From positions 1 through 39,338 of the IMG/VR virus record IMGVR_UViG_3300047586_000160: 39,338 nt of DNA; one strand, 5' to 3'. Of this stretch, positions 10,272 through 36,951 are shown piece after piece. Positions within the stretch are counted from its first letter, which is position 1, and each line of letters starts with the position of its first letter. A model generated the notes under the pieces. That model was not told the DNA's origin. It saw nothing but the letters and a program-made list of their open reading frames with translations, and searched no databases. The translations under genes were made by a program, and so were the position numbers. The DNA comes from a virus.

Positions 10272-10304
10272 GGGGGCCGGGGCGTCTTGCATGCCCCGGC
10301 CCCC
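10272..10304 (-). terminator. GC hairpin between major capsid gene and next gene
   Basis: A perfect 12-bp stem (10272-10283 with 10293-10304) encloses a nine-base loop just after the major capsid stop. There is no T-run after it on the minus strand, and the AAGGAG of the next gene follows shortly. It may attenuate read-through or protect the abundant capsid mRNA end. It shares the core CCCCGGCCCCCT with the hairpin at 24786-24828. Confidence 0.7.
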
Positions 10305-10319: not shown

Positions 10320-11264
10320 TTACGGCGTGTAGACGGCCGTGAAGAGGTAGCCGGCTGCGGCGCAGACTGCCTTCTCGTCGGTGTAGTCGTCGACGTAGTG
10401 CACCCAGCTCTTGCGGCTCTGCACCCACTCGGGAGCGGAGACCTGGAAGCGGGCGACGCCGTCCACGTTCCAGACGAACGTGCGCATGGGCACGATGACG
10501 TGGCCGGCGTTGGCGTCGACGGACTCGGGGTAGTAGGCCCAGAGGGCGCTGTTGCCCCAGATGGGCACGAATGCCTGCGTGGCATCGTCCCAGTAGGAGC
10601 CGGTGCCGATCCAGATGCGCTTGATGCCCAGCACGGCCGCCACCTGCTCGGGTGTCGGGACCGCGTAGGGGCCCTGGGTGCCGAAGATCGCGACCTTGAT
10701 CGCCGTCATGGCGCGCAGAAGCTCCCACGCCGTGTCGCTGATGATCAGCGTGTTGACCTTCTGGCCGGTGGCGGGCTGCACGGCCGCGTTGGCCGTGAGG
10801 CGGTTGCCCCACGGGTCGGGGGTCGTGTCATCCCAGGGCGCCGGACTCTGCAGCGCGCTGGTCTGGGTGAAGGTGCCGGGATCGAACGCCGTGGCGGCGA
10901 TGCGCACCTCGGCCTGACGCATGATCGTGCCGGTGACGGCCGCGATGGCGTCGGCGGAGGGGTCCACCTGCGGGTCGGCGTTGGCGATGTCCTCCTTGGG
11001 CACGACGGCCTTGAGGCCATAGCCCTTGCAGTGGAACGGCTCGTGCGAGTAGCCCCACTCGATGCGGGCGTACTCATCGCCCGGCAAGCGGTCGATGTTG
11101 GCCAGGCGCATGGCCTTCTTGTCCGCCACCCAGTAGCGATTGCTCTGCTTGGTCGAGTTCAGGACCGGGGCCACCAGCTGCCCGATGGTCTCCAGCCCCA
11201 TGGCGTAGTCGAGCGCGAAACCCGAGAGGGCTGCGTCGATATGGAGGTCTTCAGGACGCGGCAT
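10320..11264 (-). CDS. Major capsid protein
   Basis: The 314-residue product occupies the major capsid position: after protease/scaffold and decoration genes, and followed by connectors. The N-terminal 35 residues are helical (the arm region in HK97-fold capsids), and the rest is mixed alpha/beta with a conserved-style C-terminal segment ending in YLFTAVYTP. There is no separate delta domain, since the scaffold is a different protein. The ATG at 11264 follows GAGAGGGGTG. The HK97 fold is assumed from phage class and cannot be seen directly. Confidence 0.75.
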   Translation of the reverse strand: MPRPEDLHIDAALSGFALDYAMGLETIGQLVAPVLNSTKQSNRYWVADKKAMRLANIDRLPGDEYARIEWGYSHEPFHCKGYGLKAVVPKEDIANADPQVDPSADAIAAVTGTIMRQAEVRIAATAFDPGTFTQTSALQSPAPWDDTTPDPWGNRLTANAAVQPATGQKVNTLIISDTAWELLRAMTAIKVAIFGTQGPYAVPTPEQVAAVLGIKRIWIGTGSYWDDATQAFVPIWGNSALWAYYPESVDANAGHVIVPMRTFVWNVDGVARFQVSAPEWVQSRKSWVHYVDDYTDEKAVCAAAGYLFTAVYTP

Positions 11265-20346: not shown

Positions 20347-20587
20347 CAGTCGGCAACAAAGCCGCCGGGTGACGATCTTGGGGAGGGACGAAACTGCCTG
20401 GAAATGATGGTGGGCGCACGTGGATTCGAACCACGGACCTCTTCCTTATCAGAGCAACGAGTCGATTCTCGCTGGTTGTCGCACGCTCCGAAAAGGCCCT
20501 TTCAGCATGACCGACTCAGGCTCTCGGTGACGACCACCGGCCGGCAACTAGCGTCTGTCGCTGTCGTCTCCGGCAACAGCGGGCAAC
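20341..20587. other. attP: attP region: tRNA-Ile core with flanking arm repeats
   Basis: The core at 20408-20452, read on the minus strand, is the 3' part of a tRNA-Ile from the anticodon loop to CCA: loop CTGATAA with anticodon GAT, stem strand GGAAG, variable AGGTC, T-arm CGTGG-TTCGAAT-CCACG, acceptor strand TGCGCCC, A, CCA. Upstream of the loop the pairing partner of GGAAG is absent, so no full tRNA is present. Copies of GGCAAC flank it: 20342 and 20352 on one side, 20543, 20572 and 20582 on the other, with pairs 10 bp apart. This fits a tyrosine-integrase attP: crossover in the anticodon loop, arms outside. Confidence 0.85.
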
Positions 20588-22431: not shown

Positions 22432-22707
22432 GGCACTTGTGGCACTTGCTGCAGACATTGGGCCCACGTATGTGCATGCGCGCGTCATGCGCGCGCATAT
22501 AGGCGTTATGTCTGTACTAAGTGCCACAAGTGCCACAAAAGGTACTTTCTTGCTGCAAATAGGCTGTGGCACTTGCCTGGGCACTTGTGTGGCACTGTGG
22601 CACTTCATATCAGCTCACCGCCCTGAAAGAGAGCGCCCATCCGAACTAAACTGTAGCGACGCAACCTTGAGGTGTGGCTCCCTGGGGCATCGTGAGTAAG
22701 TGCCACA
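22432..22707. repeat. Iteron cluster (nine GTGGCACTT-type copies), candidate origin
   Basis: GTGGCACTT or its complement AAGTGCCAC occurs at 22432 (GGCACTT), 22439-22447, 22519-22527, 22528-22536, 22566-22574, 22579-22586 (one mismatch), 22589-22596 (GTGGCACT), 22597-22605 and 22699-22707. They are in both orientations around a short AT-richer stretch (about 22537-22563). The cluster lies between the SF3 helicase and resolvase genes, a usual place for a replication origin. An operator array is the alternative. Confidence 0.75.
22476..22498. repeat. 8-bp inverted repeat upstream of the resolvase gene
   Basis: ATGCGCGC (22476-22483) and GCGCGCAT (22491-22498) form an 8-bp stem with a seven-base loop, inside the iteron region and upstream of the resolvase start. 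It could be an origin structure or a transcript hairpin. Confidence 0.5.
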
Positions 22708-24785: not shown

Positions 24786-24828
24786 CCAGGGGGCCGAGGC
24801 TCTGAAAGCTCGAGCCCCGGCCCCCTGG
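24786..24828 (-). terminator. GC hairpin between SSB-like and primase genes
   Basis: A stem of 11 bp plus 5 bp with one mismatch (24786-24802 with 24812-24828) lies between the stop of the SSB-like gene and the ribosome binding site of the primase gene. There is no T-run on the minus strand. It may lower primase expression relative to upstream genes. The core CCCCGGCCCCCT is also in the hairpin at 10272-10304. Confidence 0.65.
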
Positions 24829-31741: not shown

Positions 31742-31831
31742 CCTCCCCCTCCTCATGCCGGTGATGATCGCAAGCACCATAGTACTGCGCAGCACCTTTC
31801 TAAGACACGCGGCGTGATGCCACAAAGATCA

Positions 31832-31863
31832 GCGCCCCGCCGCGCTGAAGCACGACGGGGCGC
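31832..31863 (-). terminator. Hairpin ending the lysis operon
   Basis: GCGCCCCG (31832-31839) pairs with CGGGGCGC (31856-31863), 8 bp, extendable by 2 bp past a mismatch. It lies 30 bases after the holin stop. Only a weak T-rich stretch (TGATCTTTG) follows on the minus strand. Confidence 0.6.
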
Positions 31864-31894
31864 CCGAGGCCGTTCCGGGAAAGGGCGGACGGTC

Positions 31895-32233
31895 TCACTT
31901 CTTGGGTGACGCGGCCGGCCACTTCGCCAGCTTCGCCATCCACGGTACGTCAGTGAAGTAGGTGTGATACCAGATCTGTGAGAATCCCCAGACGGTGCCG
32001 ACCTGGGCCGCGAGTTCCACGGCCTTGATGGCTCCCCAGTTGTCGATGAGTGCTGGCAGGGAACCGTTGGCCCAGCATTGCGCCAGGCCGACCAGCACGC
32101 CCACCGCGGTCGCGAACACGAACGTCCAGCGGTGGTTCCATCCGCATCGGCGCAGCAGCTGCACGACCAGCATGGCGAACAGCGGGCTGATGAGGATGAG
32201 GACGATCAGGTTGATGATCTCGGACGTCTTCAT
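31895..32233 (-). CDS. Holin-like membrane protein
   Basis: The 112-residue protein has three likely membrane segments (about 6-26, 36-55 and 72-95) and a C-terminal basic tail ending in PAASPKK. That fits a class I holin, which opens the membrane at lysis. AAGGAG lies just before the ATG at 32233, which overlaps the preceding stop. It closes the lysis operon. Confidence 0.65.
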   Translation of the reverse strand: MKTSEIINLIVLILISPLFAMLVVQLLRRCGWNHRWTFVFATAVGVLVGLAQCWANGSLPALIDNWGAIKAVELAAQVGTVWGFSQIWYHTYFTDVPWMAKLAKWPAASPKK

Positions 32234-32424
32234 GGTTCTCCTTGGTTGTGCTTGACGTAGTCCTCGAGGGCTTCCGCCCACGTGTACCAACGGCCTCCGA
32301 CCTTGGCGGCCTTGAGGTTGCCGGTCCTGTAGGCGTAGGTGAGACGATCTGCCGGCACCTCAAGGCCGAGCAGGTTCTTCAGGTACACAACAGCTTTCGG
32401 AGTGCTCAGTAGGTCACTCAACAC
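32230..32424 (-). CDS. Small HTH-like DNA-binding protein
   Basis: The 64-residue protein reads TPKAVVYLKNLLGLEVPADR and later TGNLKAAKVGGRWYTWAEAL, the pattern of excisionase/MerR-type helix-turn-helix proteins. It starts at GTG 32424 (or TTG 32421) and overlaps the holin ATG. Its place in the lysis region is unusual for a regulator. Confidence 0.55.
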   Translation of the reverse strand: MLSDLLSTPKAVVYLKNLLGLEVPADRLTYAYRTGNLKAAKVGGRWYTWAEALEDYVKHNQGEP

Positions 32425-33132: not shown

Positions 33133-33974
33133 GCCGCCTTCCGGATGACGCCCACCGTGCCGGTGATCACGTCAGCGTCGTAGTCAAGGCCGATGCCGGG
33201 AAGGGAGCCGTACGGATGGCCCAGATGCTGCTGGGCACAGGCGCCCTTGACCCAGACGCCGTAGCTCCAGGCCGTGCACTGGAGCGGCGCCGGGAAGCCC
33301 CAGGCGATCAGCCAGCGGCAGAAGGTGGCGTCGCCGTAGCCCGAGACCCACTCCTTGCCGCCGAGCTCCTTGGCCGCGGCGAACATGGCGCGCTTGATCG
33401 CCGGCTTATGCCAGAGCCGGACCTCGAAGTCGGCGCAGAGCAGGATGGTGAACGTGGCGCCTTTGCCGGCGAACGCGTGCACCGCGTCGCGCACCCGCAG
33501 CGCGGCCCGTATGCCGAACGGGGCTCCGTCGAGCATGGAGCTGGCGCCCTCTTCGTAGAGAGGCGCCACACAGATGCCGGCCGAGTCGAGCCCCTGCCAC
33601 TCGCTCTTCGTGATCGACTTCCACGCCGAGTAGGCGAAGTAGCGGAAGCACGTCAGGATCCTCTTCGCCTTCAACTGTGCCGGCAGGGCGGAGGCATAGC
33701 CCCCGGCGTAGTCGATGCCGTTGGGCGACGTGGCTGGCTGGGGGCCATAGCGCGCCAGCGCCTTGATCGTCTGGGCGTCCCACTTGTTGGTCGCCGGCCA
33801 GCCGTGGGCCAGCTTGAACTGGCGGCGCACGAAGCGCGCGGGCGGCCCCATGATGAGCAGCTGCGGCTTGATGCGCTTAGCCTGTGTCTTCGTGGTTGCG
33901 CCCCGCTCTGGTAGCAGGCCCCATGCCTGCAGGGCTGCCTTCAAGAACCGGAGCTTCTGTGGAGATACCTTCAC
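33129..33974 (-). CDS. Endolysin with DUF1906-type glycoside-hydrolase-like domain
   Basis: The 281-residue protein has an N-terminal peptidoglycan-binding-like segment (about 30-75, ARFVRRQFKLAHGWPATNKW) and then a TIM-barrel-like domain starting GIDYAGGYASALPAQLKAKR with ICVAPLYEEGASS and FTILLCADFE, as in DUF1906/Rv2525c-like proteins. These are common lysins of actinophages, although muralytic activity is not proved for the fold. There is no signal peptide, so it would depend on the holin. The GTG at 33974 has GGAGG upstream. Confidence 0.75.
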   Translation of the reverse strand: MKVSPQKLRFLKAALQAWGLLPERGATTKTQAKRIKPQLLIMGPPARFVRRQFKLAHGWPATNKWDAQTIKALARYGPQPATSPNGIDYAGGYASALPAQLKAKRILTCFRYFAYSAWKSITKSEWQGLDSAGICVAPLYEEGASSMLDGAPFGIRAALRVRDAVHAFAGKGATFTILLCADFEVRLWHKPAIKRAMFAAAKELGGKEWVSGYGDATFCRWLIAWGFPAPLQCTAWSYGVWVKGACAQQHLGHPYGSLPGIGLDYDADVITGTVGVIRKAA

Positions 33975-34126
33975 TTCGCGCCTCCGTGTCGGACGTTGTG
34001 ACGTTGTGGATGCCGGATGTGTGGCATGCGCTCATCCGGCTGTCGCAGGCCGCGGAACCAAGAGACCACGAGCACCATGAGCAGCAACACCACGATGCCG
34101 ATCTGGACGATGGTCCCGGTGCTCAT
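33971..34126 (-). CDS. Small membrane protein in the lysis region, 51 aa
   Basis: From the ATG at 34126 (overlapping the upstream stop) to a TGA overlapping the endolysin GTG. One N-terminal membrane segment (IVQIGIVVLLLMVLVVSWF) is followed by a histidine- and arginine-rich tail. The topology suits a small holin or spanin-like accessory protein. The frame is coupled on both sides, which supports it. Confidence 0.6.
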   Translation of the reverse strand: MSTGTIVQIGIVVLLLMVLVVSWFRGLRQPDERMPHIRHPQRHNVRHGGAK

Positions 34127-34665
34127 GGCGAGTACCCCGGGACGTGGATATGGCGCCAGGAGAGAGGCAGCCAGCCGTGGTACCAGGGCCAGGGCCGGTA
34201 CTGCCAGCGATGATGCCGCTCGTTACGTGCCGTGGCCTTGCAGAAGAGGCTGACGTTGGTCAGCGGGCTGAAAAGGTTCAAGCCTCGCCCCCAGGTGTAG
34301 GCATCGAACTGGTAGAGCCCCCAGAAGCGCCCGGTGACGCAGAGCGGGTTCCCGGACGACTCGCGGTACATGATGTAGAGACCCGTCTGCAGGTCACGGA
34401 GGGTAGGGCGCAGTCCGAAGCGCCGATGCCAGACCGTGAGCCGCTGCCAGAGCAGGAGCCGCCAGCGAAGGACCGCGCGCGTCGGGCCCGCAGTCGCTCC
34501 TCGATCGAGAGCGGCACCGGGTACGGCCGCGGCGGCAGCTGGCGCACCGGAGGCCGATGATAGCGCGACACCGCGTAGTGGCGCCGGCGACGCGCCTGCG
34601 CACGCAGCATCAAGAAGCAGGAAAGCCAGAACAAGCAACGCGAGAGCCAGCGCACGTCTCACCAT
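34123..34665 (-). CDS. Secreted SLT-like muralytic protein
   Basis: The 180-residue protein has a signal peptide (VRRALALALLVLAFLLLDAA, cleavage near ACAGA) and an arginine/alanine-rich region. The C-terminal half is SLT-like: a helix with ESSGNP (the usual catalytic Glu in a RESSGNP setting), then GLYQFDAYTWG. It would act as a lytic transglycosylase or related muramidase outside the membrane. The ATG at 34665 has GGAAGG nearby. Export makes this enzyme independent of the holin. Confidence 0.7.
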   Translation of the reverse strand: MVRRALALALLVLAFLLLDAACAGASPAPLRGVALSSASGAPAAAAAVPGAALDRGATAGPTRAVLRWRLLLWQRLTVWHRRFGLRPTLRDLQTGLYIMYRESSGNPLCVTGRFWGLYQFDAYTWGRGLNLFSPLTNVSLFCKATARNERHHRWQYRPWPWYHGWLPLSWRHIHVPGYSP

Positions 34666-34689
34666 CCATCCTTCCGTCGCCTACGGGCC

Positions 34690-34777
34690 CGGACTGCGGG
34701 CCGCCCAGGACCGGCCTGGGGGCACCGGGCGAGGCTAGGGGGAGACTCGCACGATCTCCCGGACGGCCCGCAGTCCG
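34690..34777. ncRNA. 88-nt three-way-junction structure in the lysis leader
   Basis: A 14-bp outer stem (CGGACTGCGGGCCG at 34690-34703 with its exact complement at 34764-34777) encloses two hairpins: CCCAGG/CCTGGG (34704-34709 with 34715-34720) and GGGAGA/TCTCCC (34740-34745 with 34755-34760). It lies about 25 bp upstream of the muralytic gene start. Read on the minus strand it would be the leader of that gene; a separate small RNA on either strand is possible. Confidence 0.6.
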
Positions 34778-34816
34778 TCGTCAGGCTCTCAAGCTAGTGG
34801 AGGGAATCGAGGGAAG

Positions 34817-34830
34817 CTAAGACGTCTTAG
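34817..34830. promoter_or_regulatory. 14-bp perfect palindrome, copy 2
   Basis: CTAAGACGTCTTAG, identical to 19117-19130, lies between the terminator at 34836 and the structured lysis leader. This is where a promoter or operator for the lysis operon would be expected. Confidence 0.6.
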
Positions 34831-34835
34831 AGAAC

Positions 34836-34864
34836 GCAAAAGGCCCGCCGGAGCGGGCCTTTGC
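34836..34864. terminator. Bidirectional terminator
   Basis: AAAGGCCCGC (34839-34848) and GCGGGCCTTT (34853-34862) form a 10-bp stem with loop CGGA, with a T-run on both strands (TTTTGC on minus). It ends the methyltransferase region before the lysis operon. The rest of 34666-34964 holds the structure and palindrome described, with nothing else recognisable. Confidence 0.85.
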
Positions 34865-34964
34865 GGGTCGGAGCAGTCAGCTCCGGGAAGGTGCGTGTGA
34901 ACTAGGGTCTCAGGATGTCAAGTCGCCGCATGCAAACAGTGAGCAGGCGGCTGACTCTCTTCGG

Positions 34965-35277: not shown

Positions 35278-36951
35278 CTACGTGTCGAGATCCAACTCCA
35301 GCGCCTCGTGCTCAGCCTGCGACCGCGGCGCCTTCTTGAATGTCTGCCCGACCTGCCCCATCGGCGGCGCGTCGATACGCTTGCCAGCCAGGAGTTCGGG
35401 CACTGTGAGTAGCTGAAGGCGAGGGTGATTGCCCCAGGGCGATTGGTAGAAGCCCGCCGAAGCGGCCTCCTCACGCATCGGCTTCGTGGGGTTCTCCATA
35501 GTGATGAGCACGCCGATTGCCGCGCCCTCGCGTGTCACGACTCCGCCTAACTCGTGGACGAAGTTGCGATGGAGGTTCGCTCCCGCCTTCACTGACAGGA
35601 TGATGTGCTTGACGTCGGTGGGGTTGCCCTCGTGGAAGAGGATGCGGCCGTCGATGCCTTTGTCCGCGCCCTTTTTTTGCTCCACCGGCCGCGCGCCGAC
35701 TAGGCCGAGCGCCCACCACTGAAACTGGTACGGGTCGTCCGCCGCGAGCTGGCGGGCGCCCTCGATGTCGGTCGGCTCGCCAATCACTTCATACTCGGCC
35801 TTCACGCCTTCCCCGAACGCGGTTAGTAGCCGGTGCTTCATGAGGTTGATGGCAAGGTGAGTGATGTCGATACCGACCCAGCGGCGCTTGAGACGCTGAG
35901 CGACGGCGATCGCCGTGCCGCAGCCGCAGAAGGGATCAAGCACCACGTCGCCCTCGTCACTGCTGGCCAGGATGATGCGCTCCAGCAGGGCCTCGGGCTT
36001 CTGGGTGGGGTAGCCTAGGCGCTCGGCAGCCCGAGCGTTGATGGGCGGGATGTCGGTCCACACATCTTGGCCTGGCATGCCCGGCATCTCATCGAGGTAC
36101 CTGATGTACTCGGCAGTACCATTGCGGGTGTAGCGGATGCGCCCTTCGGCGTCCCACTCAGCCATCCGCTCCGGCGGGCATCGCCATATGCGCGTGACGC
36201 TCTTCCACTCATAGGTGTATCCGCCGCCGCTCAGGCCTCCGGCCGTGAGGTCGCTCGTTCGGAAGCGCCGACCCTTCTCATCGACGAAGCGGTAGTGCGA
36301 CTCCACATATTCGTCGTCGTAAGGCTGGAACAGCTTGTTGTGGACAAAGCCCAGGCCCTTCGAGTAGTACAGCAGCACGTCGTGGGCCTTGCCAAGCACC
36401 TTGGAGTCGCTGTGCGCCGACGTCCGCTTCCACGCGACCTCGTTGCGGAAGTTCACAGGGGCGAATACCGCATCCATGAGCAGCTTCAGGTAGTGGCTGG
36501 CCGTGGGGTCGCAGTGAAGCCAGATGCTGCCGGTGGGCTTCAGGACGCGATGCAGCTCCACGAAGCGCGGAGCCATCATGGCGAGGTACGCCATCATGTT
36601 CGACTCGCCCAGGAGCGTGAAGAACGCCTGGAGGGCGTTGCCAACCGCGCCGCCGGCCTGCACGGTTTCGAAGTAGGCGCGGGCCGCTTGCTCGTCCCAC
36701 GTCCACGTGTCCTCGAAGGCTTGTATCTGACTGGCGGCCTTCTCCCCGGAGTGCTCGGCGAACAGCACGTTGTACGTGGCGTTGGAGTTGAAGGGCGGGT
36801 CCAGGTAGACAAGGTCGACCGTCTCGTCCTTCACGTAGCGGCGCAGGACGTCGAGGTTGTCGCCGTAGTAGAGGGTGTTGGGGGGCACGACGGGCAGGTT
36901 ATCATGCACCCCCCGTGTGGCGGAAGGAGGCCGCCGAATCAGTTCTTCCAA
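35278..36951 (-). CDS. Adenine/cytosine-N DNA methyltransferase fused to Mrr-like nuclease domain
   Basis: The 557-residue protein has the beta-class amino-methyltransferase order: catalytic DPPF (51-54, in YLDPPFNSN) first, then the SAM motif DPFCGCGT (339-346, VVLDPFCGCG). Residues about 405-500 form a separate domain resembling Mrr-type PD-(D/E)XK nucleases: GADKGIDGR with D434, then ILSVKAG with K455 and a valine where E or Q is usual. If active it would be a single-chain restriction-modification enzyme; it could also be a methyltransferase with an inactive nuclease-like specificity domain. The start is TTG at 36951 overlapping the preceding stop; GTG 36909 is the alternative. Confidence 0.8.
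   Translation of the reverse strand: MEELIRRPPSATRGVHDNLPVVPPNTLYYGDNLDVLRRYVKDETVDLVYLDPPFNSNATYNVLFAEHSGEKAASQIQAFEDTWTWDEQAARAYFETVQAGGAVGNALQAFFTLLGESNMMAYLAMMAPRFVELHRVLKPTGSIWLHCDPTASHYLKLLMDAVFAPVNFRNEVAWKRTSAHSDSKVLGKAHDVLLYYSKGLGFVHNKLFQPYDDEYVESHYRFVDEKGRRFRTSDLTAGGLSGGGYTYEWKSVTRIWRCPPERMAEWDAEGRIRYTRNGTAEYIRYLDEMPGMPGQDVWTDIPPINARAAERLGYPTQKPEALLERIILASSDEGDVVLDPFCGCGTAIAVAQRLKRRWVGIDITHLAINLMKHRLLTAFGEGVKAEYEVIGEPTDIEGARQLAADDPYQFQWWALGLVGARPVEQKKGADKGIDGRILFHEGNPTDVKHIILSVKAGANLHRNFVHELGGVVTREGAAIGVLITMENPTKPMREEAASAGFYQSPWGNHPRLQLLTVPELLAGKRIDAPPMGQVGQTFKKAPRSQAEHEALELDLDT

Follow-up and report, generated by a model that had tools for sequence, protein, structure and literature searches.

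The lysis-gene leader

The DNA analysed here, called the window below, is IMG/VR record IMGVR_UViG_3300047586_000160 at its full length of 39,338 bases, from an uncultivated virus. Integrase, terminase, portal, head protease and tape-measure genes identify it as a temperate tailed phage. The minus strand carries its clear genes, among them those around the element described here, and we therefore considered this strand to be the relevant RNA. In a hand-made gene model of the window, the largest gap between genes (299 nt; 34666-34964) contains a long helix. On the minus strand, a methyltransferase gene and a 64-aa gene precede the gap and a 180-aa gene, probably the first lysis gene, follows it. 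The features of the leader and of the genes behind it are, in the order of transcription:

34839-34862, minus strand: U-tailed terminator-like hairpin of the preceding genes, AAAGGCCCGC....GCGGGCCTTTT
34817-34830, no strand assigned: perfect 14-nt palindrome CTAAGACGTCTTAG, between terminator and helix
34799-34816, minus strand: CU-rich element CTTCCCTCGATTCCCTCC, able to pair with the Shine-Dalgarno sequence
34690-34777, minus strand: the leader helix as a whole, a 21-bp closing stem around 46 nt
34757-34777, minus strand: 5' arm of the 21-bp stem, CGGACTGCGGGCCGTCCGGGA; the perfect repeat arm corresponds to its outer 14 nt (34764-34777)
34711-34750, minus strand: two small hairpins within the stem (34729-34750 and 34711-34728), tentatively predicted from the minimum-free-energy fold
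34690-34710, minus strand: 3' arm of the 21-bp stem, TCCTGGGCGGCCCGCAGTCCG; foot 25 nt upstream of the start codon
34670-34675, minus strand: Shine-Dalgarno-like GGAAGG of the first lysis gene, recognized by its sequence
34123-34665, minus strand: first lysis gene, 180 aa, start codon at 34665; the protein has a hydrophobic segment at its N-terminus and contains the motif ESSG...GLYQF
33971-34126, minus strand: membrane protein, 51 aa
33129-33974, minus strand: probable endolysin, 281 aa (PHROG 13480 endolysin, E 1.8e-4; weak match to Rv2525c-like glycoside hydrolases)
31895-32290, minus strand: holin-like membrane protein, 27% identical to the correspondingly placed protein of the related phage G023

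The product of 31895-32290 is termed holin-like for its hydrophobicity and place only. Behind this gene, a 15-bp hairpin with a modest T-rich tail (31831-31864; GATCTTTGTG) is a possible terminator of the lysis unit. Upstream of the gap, the methyltransferase (35278-36951; N6_N4_Mtase) carries an Mrr-like restriction-endonuclease-type domain at its C-terminus and has relatives of 41-65% identity in many unrelated phages.

The helix thus lies between the U-tailed terminator-like hairpin, 61 nt away, and the probable first lysis gene, where a sequence-only reading had correctly placed it. The hairpin at 34839-34862 was not in the list of the pattern scanner, and a sigma-70 scan found no promoter. 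The palindrome may possibly be an operator or part of a promoter region.

Repeat, fold and stability of the helix

The arms CGGACTGCGGGCCG (34690-34703) and CGGCCCGCAGTCCG (34764-34777) form an exact 14-bp inverted repeat with 60 nt between them. The sequence-only reading had described this closing stem and judged a chance origin unlikely. Both points were borne out: dinucleotide-shuffled versions of the whole window contained on average 0.07 perfect 14-bp inverted repeats with a spacer of up to 80 nt. The window has one further cluster of such repeats, at 22432-22534. It is part of a group of direct and inverted GTGCCAC/GTGGCAC repeats (22432-22605) that adjoins the primase gene and looks like an iteron-type replication origin or an operator.

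On the minus strand the stem extends to 21 contiguous pairs, two of them G-U (34690-34710 with 34757-34777), with sampled pair probabilities of 0.81-1.0. The best fold of the 88 nt reached -61.6 kcal/mol on the minus strand and -59.1 kcal/mol on the plus strand, and on both strands it lay 5 standard deviations below that of shuffled sequences. The 21-bp helix, wholly intergenic, is the most stable of the window on the transcribed strand (-47.2 kcal/mol). The interior drawn by the sequence-only reading, a three-way junction with two 6-bp hairpins (CCCAGG/CCTGGG and GGGAGA/TCTCCC), did not appear in the predicted fold, which has different small hairpins instead; the 14-bp stem with those two hairpins gave -48.4 versus -61.6 kcal/mol on the minus strand and -50.4 versus -59.1 kcal/mol on the plus strand.

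The 3' foot of the helix is followed by GGCCCGTAGG, which contains no U-run, and the pattern scanner listed no intrinsic terminator there. At gathering score, Rfam 15 had no match in the window. In a relaxed search of 34600-34900, only microRNA models at chance level (E 1.3-1.4) fell over the helix, the other matches being terminators. With neither an Rfam family nor a terminator just after the helix, the suggestion of a separate small RNA has so far found no support. As a marker in viral contigs the 14-mer was discarded, since it matched at least 120 stretches, which we took as chance in GC-rich DNA.

Other strong helices also occur in gaps of the window: gaps account for 5.6% of its sequence and contain four of the five strongest helices on the transcribed strand. 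A 17-bp hairpin (24786-24828; -40 kcal/mol), the second strongest helix of the window, lies in the gap immediately ahead of the primase gene, and a probable TTG start (24764) follows it at a distance of ~20 nt. A 12-bp GC hairpin without U-run (GGGGGCCGGGGC/GCCCCGGCCCCC; 10272-10304) separates the gene at 10320-11264, capsid-like by its place, from the next start. It recurs nearly identically at the same place in the related phages G009 and G023, and in a third, G022, it is changed with most pairs kept, including one two-sided change. The integrase gene has the 3' half of a tRNA gene (GGTTCGAATCC...CCCACCA; 20400-20450) a short way upstream, an arrangement that an attP site would show and that recurs with another tRNA in G023.

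Related phages

The first lysis gene and the endolysin had no direct relatives among viral contigs and phages, the primase as bait yielded only distant partial matches, and neither the terminase nor an alignment of the lysis gene found relatives in bacterial genomes. Relatives were reached only through the terminase and the neighbouring methyltransferase: G023 (42 kb), G022 (24 kb) and G008/G009 (40 and 28 kb), the last two being one phage (99.995-100% identical over 27 kb). As tblastx over all frames was too noisy, genomes were compared protein-to-protein; portal, terminase or capsid-region proteins of the relatives are ~30-65% identical to those of the window. All of them have, in the corresponding place, an SLT-like gene whose product has a hydrophobic segment at the N-terminus; the first lysis gene of the window is remotely similar to it (profile comparison; E 5e-4, probability 32%). 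A scan with an alignment of these SLT-like genes added five more distant loci (L244-L248).

Helices in the leaders of the relatives

The leaders of the window, G009, G022 and G023 could not be aligned, and close homologues were not found. We searched the 160 nt before each start codon for the most stable uninterrupted helix with its 3' foot 18-50 nt upstream of the start, a foot window that was chosen after inspecting the leaders. The helices, with the number of dinucleotide shuffles that reached the same stability and the share of genome positions that did so, were:

Window: 21 bp, foot at -25; 0 of 10,000 shuffles; 0.05% of positions
G009: 13 bp, foot at -29; 2 of 10,000 shuffles; 0.51% of positions
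G022: 13 bp, foot at -37; 13 of 10,000 shuffles; 0.58% of positions
G023: 13 bp, foot at -29; 10 of 10,000 shuffles; 0.24% of positions

Combined by Fisher's method and taken as independent, the four genome figures give ~1e-7, the true value being weaker because the foot window is post hoc. In all four phages the helix stops shortly before the position that a ribosome would occupy at initiation, and in none is it followed by a U-run. Folding of the whole leader (163 nt) gave z values of -2.5 to -3.1 for these four and of -1.4 to 0.6 for the five others; 4-7% of 120-nt windows in these genomes lie below z -2.5.

The helix was absent from the five distant loci. In four of them (L244, L245, L247 and L248) the gene lies within ~42 nt of the preceding gene or overlaps it, and L246, a more distant phage with a long gap, is a real exception. 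Flanking genes without stems, the finding named beforehand as speaking against the structure, were not seen in the four long-leader phages of this layout, although L246 and the four close-spaced loci lack the helix. The broader proposal of a structured leader before the lysis genes is supported: three relatives have a comparable helix, about equally far from the syntenic gene. Our data support such a leader as real, above chance and recurrent in related phages.

The arms of the four helices are unrelated in sequence, and their lengths and loops also differ, so that a conserved three-way junction is unsupported so far. What is kept is the strength of the helix and its place. Three of the helices enclose 46-76 nt, that of G009 is a hairpin of 13 bp and a 14-nt loop, and the in-context fold of G022 is a long imperfect helix around the 13-bp core. 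Since three relatives have a comparably exceptional but differently spelled helix in the same place, the structure is probably kept by selection. The opposite view, that the element has no RNA function and is a chance or DNA-level inverted repeat at a gene-cassette junction, would fit the other gap hairpins of the window, the equally good folding of the plus and minus strands, and the 5-12 equally strong helices that these GC-rich genomes hold per contig. Near-constant distances from the start codon with unrelated arms in four phages are hard to explain without selection on the RNA, and we regard this view as very unlikely.

The length of the stem in the window recalls RNase III, whose substrates are known to include long uninterrupted RNA duplexes (PMC3997798). 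Cutting of the helix would then determine where the lysis mRNA begins and how abundant it is. Against a criterion of ~20 or more uninterrupted pairs, the window has 21 on the transcribed strand and the three relatives have 13 each. The long imperfect helix of G022 would suit the enzyme, but the 13-bp hairpin of G009 is short for it, and we give an RNase III site little chance.

Termination is another function to be weighed. In phage lambda, an untranslated structured leader transcribed from pR' also directly precedes the lysis genes; it contains tR', a U-tailed intrinsic terminator, which is overcome by Q antitermination. The helix of the window might similarly be an attenuator, a terminator without U-run between the promoter and the lysis genes that a late antitermination factor overcomes. 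The window repeatedly has very strong GC hairpins with no U-run in its gaps, and such hairpins also stand behind the capsid-like gene in four phages. An RNA-seq study of 13 genomes reports that poly-U trails are not necessary for hairpin-linked transcript ends (PMC8355165), a point in favour of this reading. However, the same phage has a U-tailed terminator next door at 34839-34862, the stretch enclosed in three of the four leaders sets them apart from compact terminator hairpins, and a gene for an antiterminator was not identified in the phage. We consider an attenuator unlikely.

Possible pairing of the Shine-Dalgarno sequence

The best folds of the window, G009, G023 and L246 paired the CU-rich element with the Shine-Dalgarno region, and 15 of its 18 positions are common to the window and G023, at -151 and -158 from the start. 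This raises the possibility of a translational lock, in which the helix would juxtapose the Shine-Dalgarno sequence and the CU-rich element on its 5' side, the two would pair, and expression would follow on opening or bypass of the lock, as for gene e (lysozyme) of phage T4. In T4, a leader helix containing the Shine-Dalgarno sequence and/or the start codon represses the gene; late promoters give transcripts in which the 5' part of this helix is missing (PMC3014915). In both cases the leader of a phage lysis gene contains an RNA helix that is kept in close relatives and absent in distant ones. In contrast to T4, where the late promoters lie in the 5' strand of the helix, the stem of the window (34690-34777) stops 24 nt short of the start codon (34665) and leaves out both this codon and the Shine-Dalgarno sequence (34670-34675), so that it does not itself sequester them.

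The CU-rich motif is only suggestive, its similarity having a p value of 0.15 against shuffles. Distal pairing onto the Shine-Dalgarno sequence gave p values of 0.13, 0.75, 0.01, 0.22 and 0.08, and a duplex test of the pairing showed no excess over shuffles. Moreover, a CCUCC-type sequence pairs with any Shine-Dalgarno sequence, and masking thus arises easily by chance in C-rich leaders. A lock of this kind appears rather unlikely.

Discussion

Our preferred, still tentative, reading is that the helix belongs to the 5' untranslated leader of the lysis operon mRNA, where it is selected for strength and position and acts as an mRNA stabilizer and/or insulator. The terminator of the window 61 nt before the helix and, in G022, a divergently oriented ORF ending 202 nt upstream of the start suggest that the promoter probably lies in the gap and that the helix is near the 5' end of the mRNA. 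The RNA of the lysis genes would then probably begin with a very strong hairpin. If it forms in the cell, a long and GC-rich helix, free to vary in sequence, would stand directly upstream of the ribosome footprint on the first lysis gene. As a generic structure it could protect the lysis mRNA against decay in its 5' part, and it might also, or instead, insulate the ribosome-binding site from upstream RNA while leaving the Shine-Dalgarno sequence itself outside. Protection of the 5' end, already offered by the sequence-only reading, is one of the likelier readings; its suggestion that the leader times lysis has so far found no support. The conservation of position and strength without sequence fits a stabilizer or insulator better than a switch that recognizes a ligand or a protein. 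The further strong gap hairpins of the window count against our preferred reading, since they indicate that such a helix is not special to lysis.

In E. coli, 5' stem-loops stabilize mRNAs such as those of ompA and papA, as cited in PMC3997798. These stem-loops and the element of the window are alike in being a strong helix near the 5' end, presumed in our case, and outside the ribosome-binding site, with the helix mattering more than its sequence. The element of the window differs in being longer and more stable.

Lysis-gene leaders are natural control points, of which few are known outside model phages, and we found no paper on structured lysis-gene leaders in such phages in the open-licence literature. 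A more far-reaching proposal, which we consider quite unlikely as it stands, is that a group of uncultivated temperate phages keeps a lysis leader in which nothing is conserved but a very strong helix, almost equally far from the first lysis gene in each phage and possibly accompanied by a CU-rich element able to mask the ribosome-binding site, as a sequence-free device that would set the timing or amount of lysis enzyme. Place and strength kept without sequence would be missed by homology and covariance searches, and similar leaders may therefore be common but unlisted.
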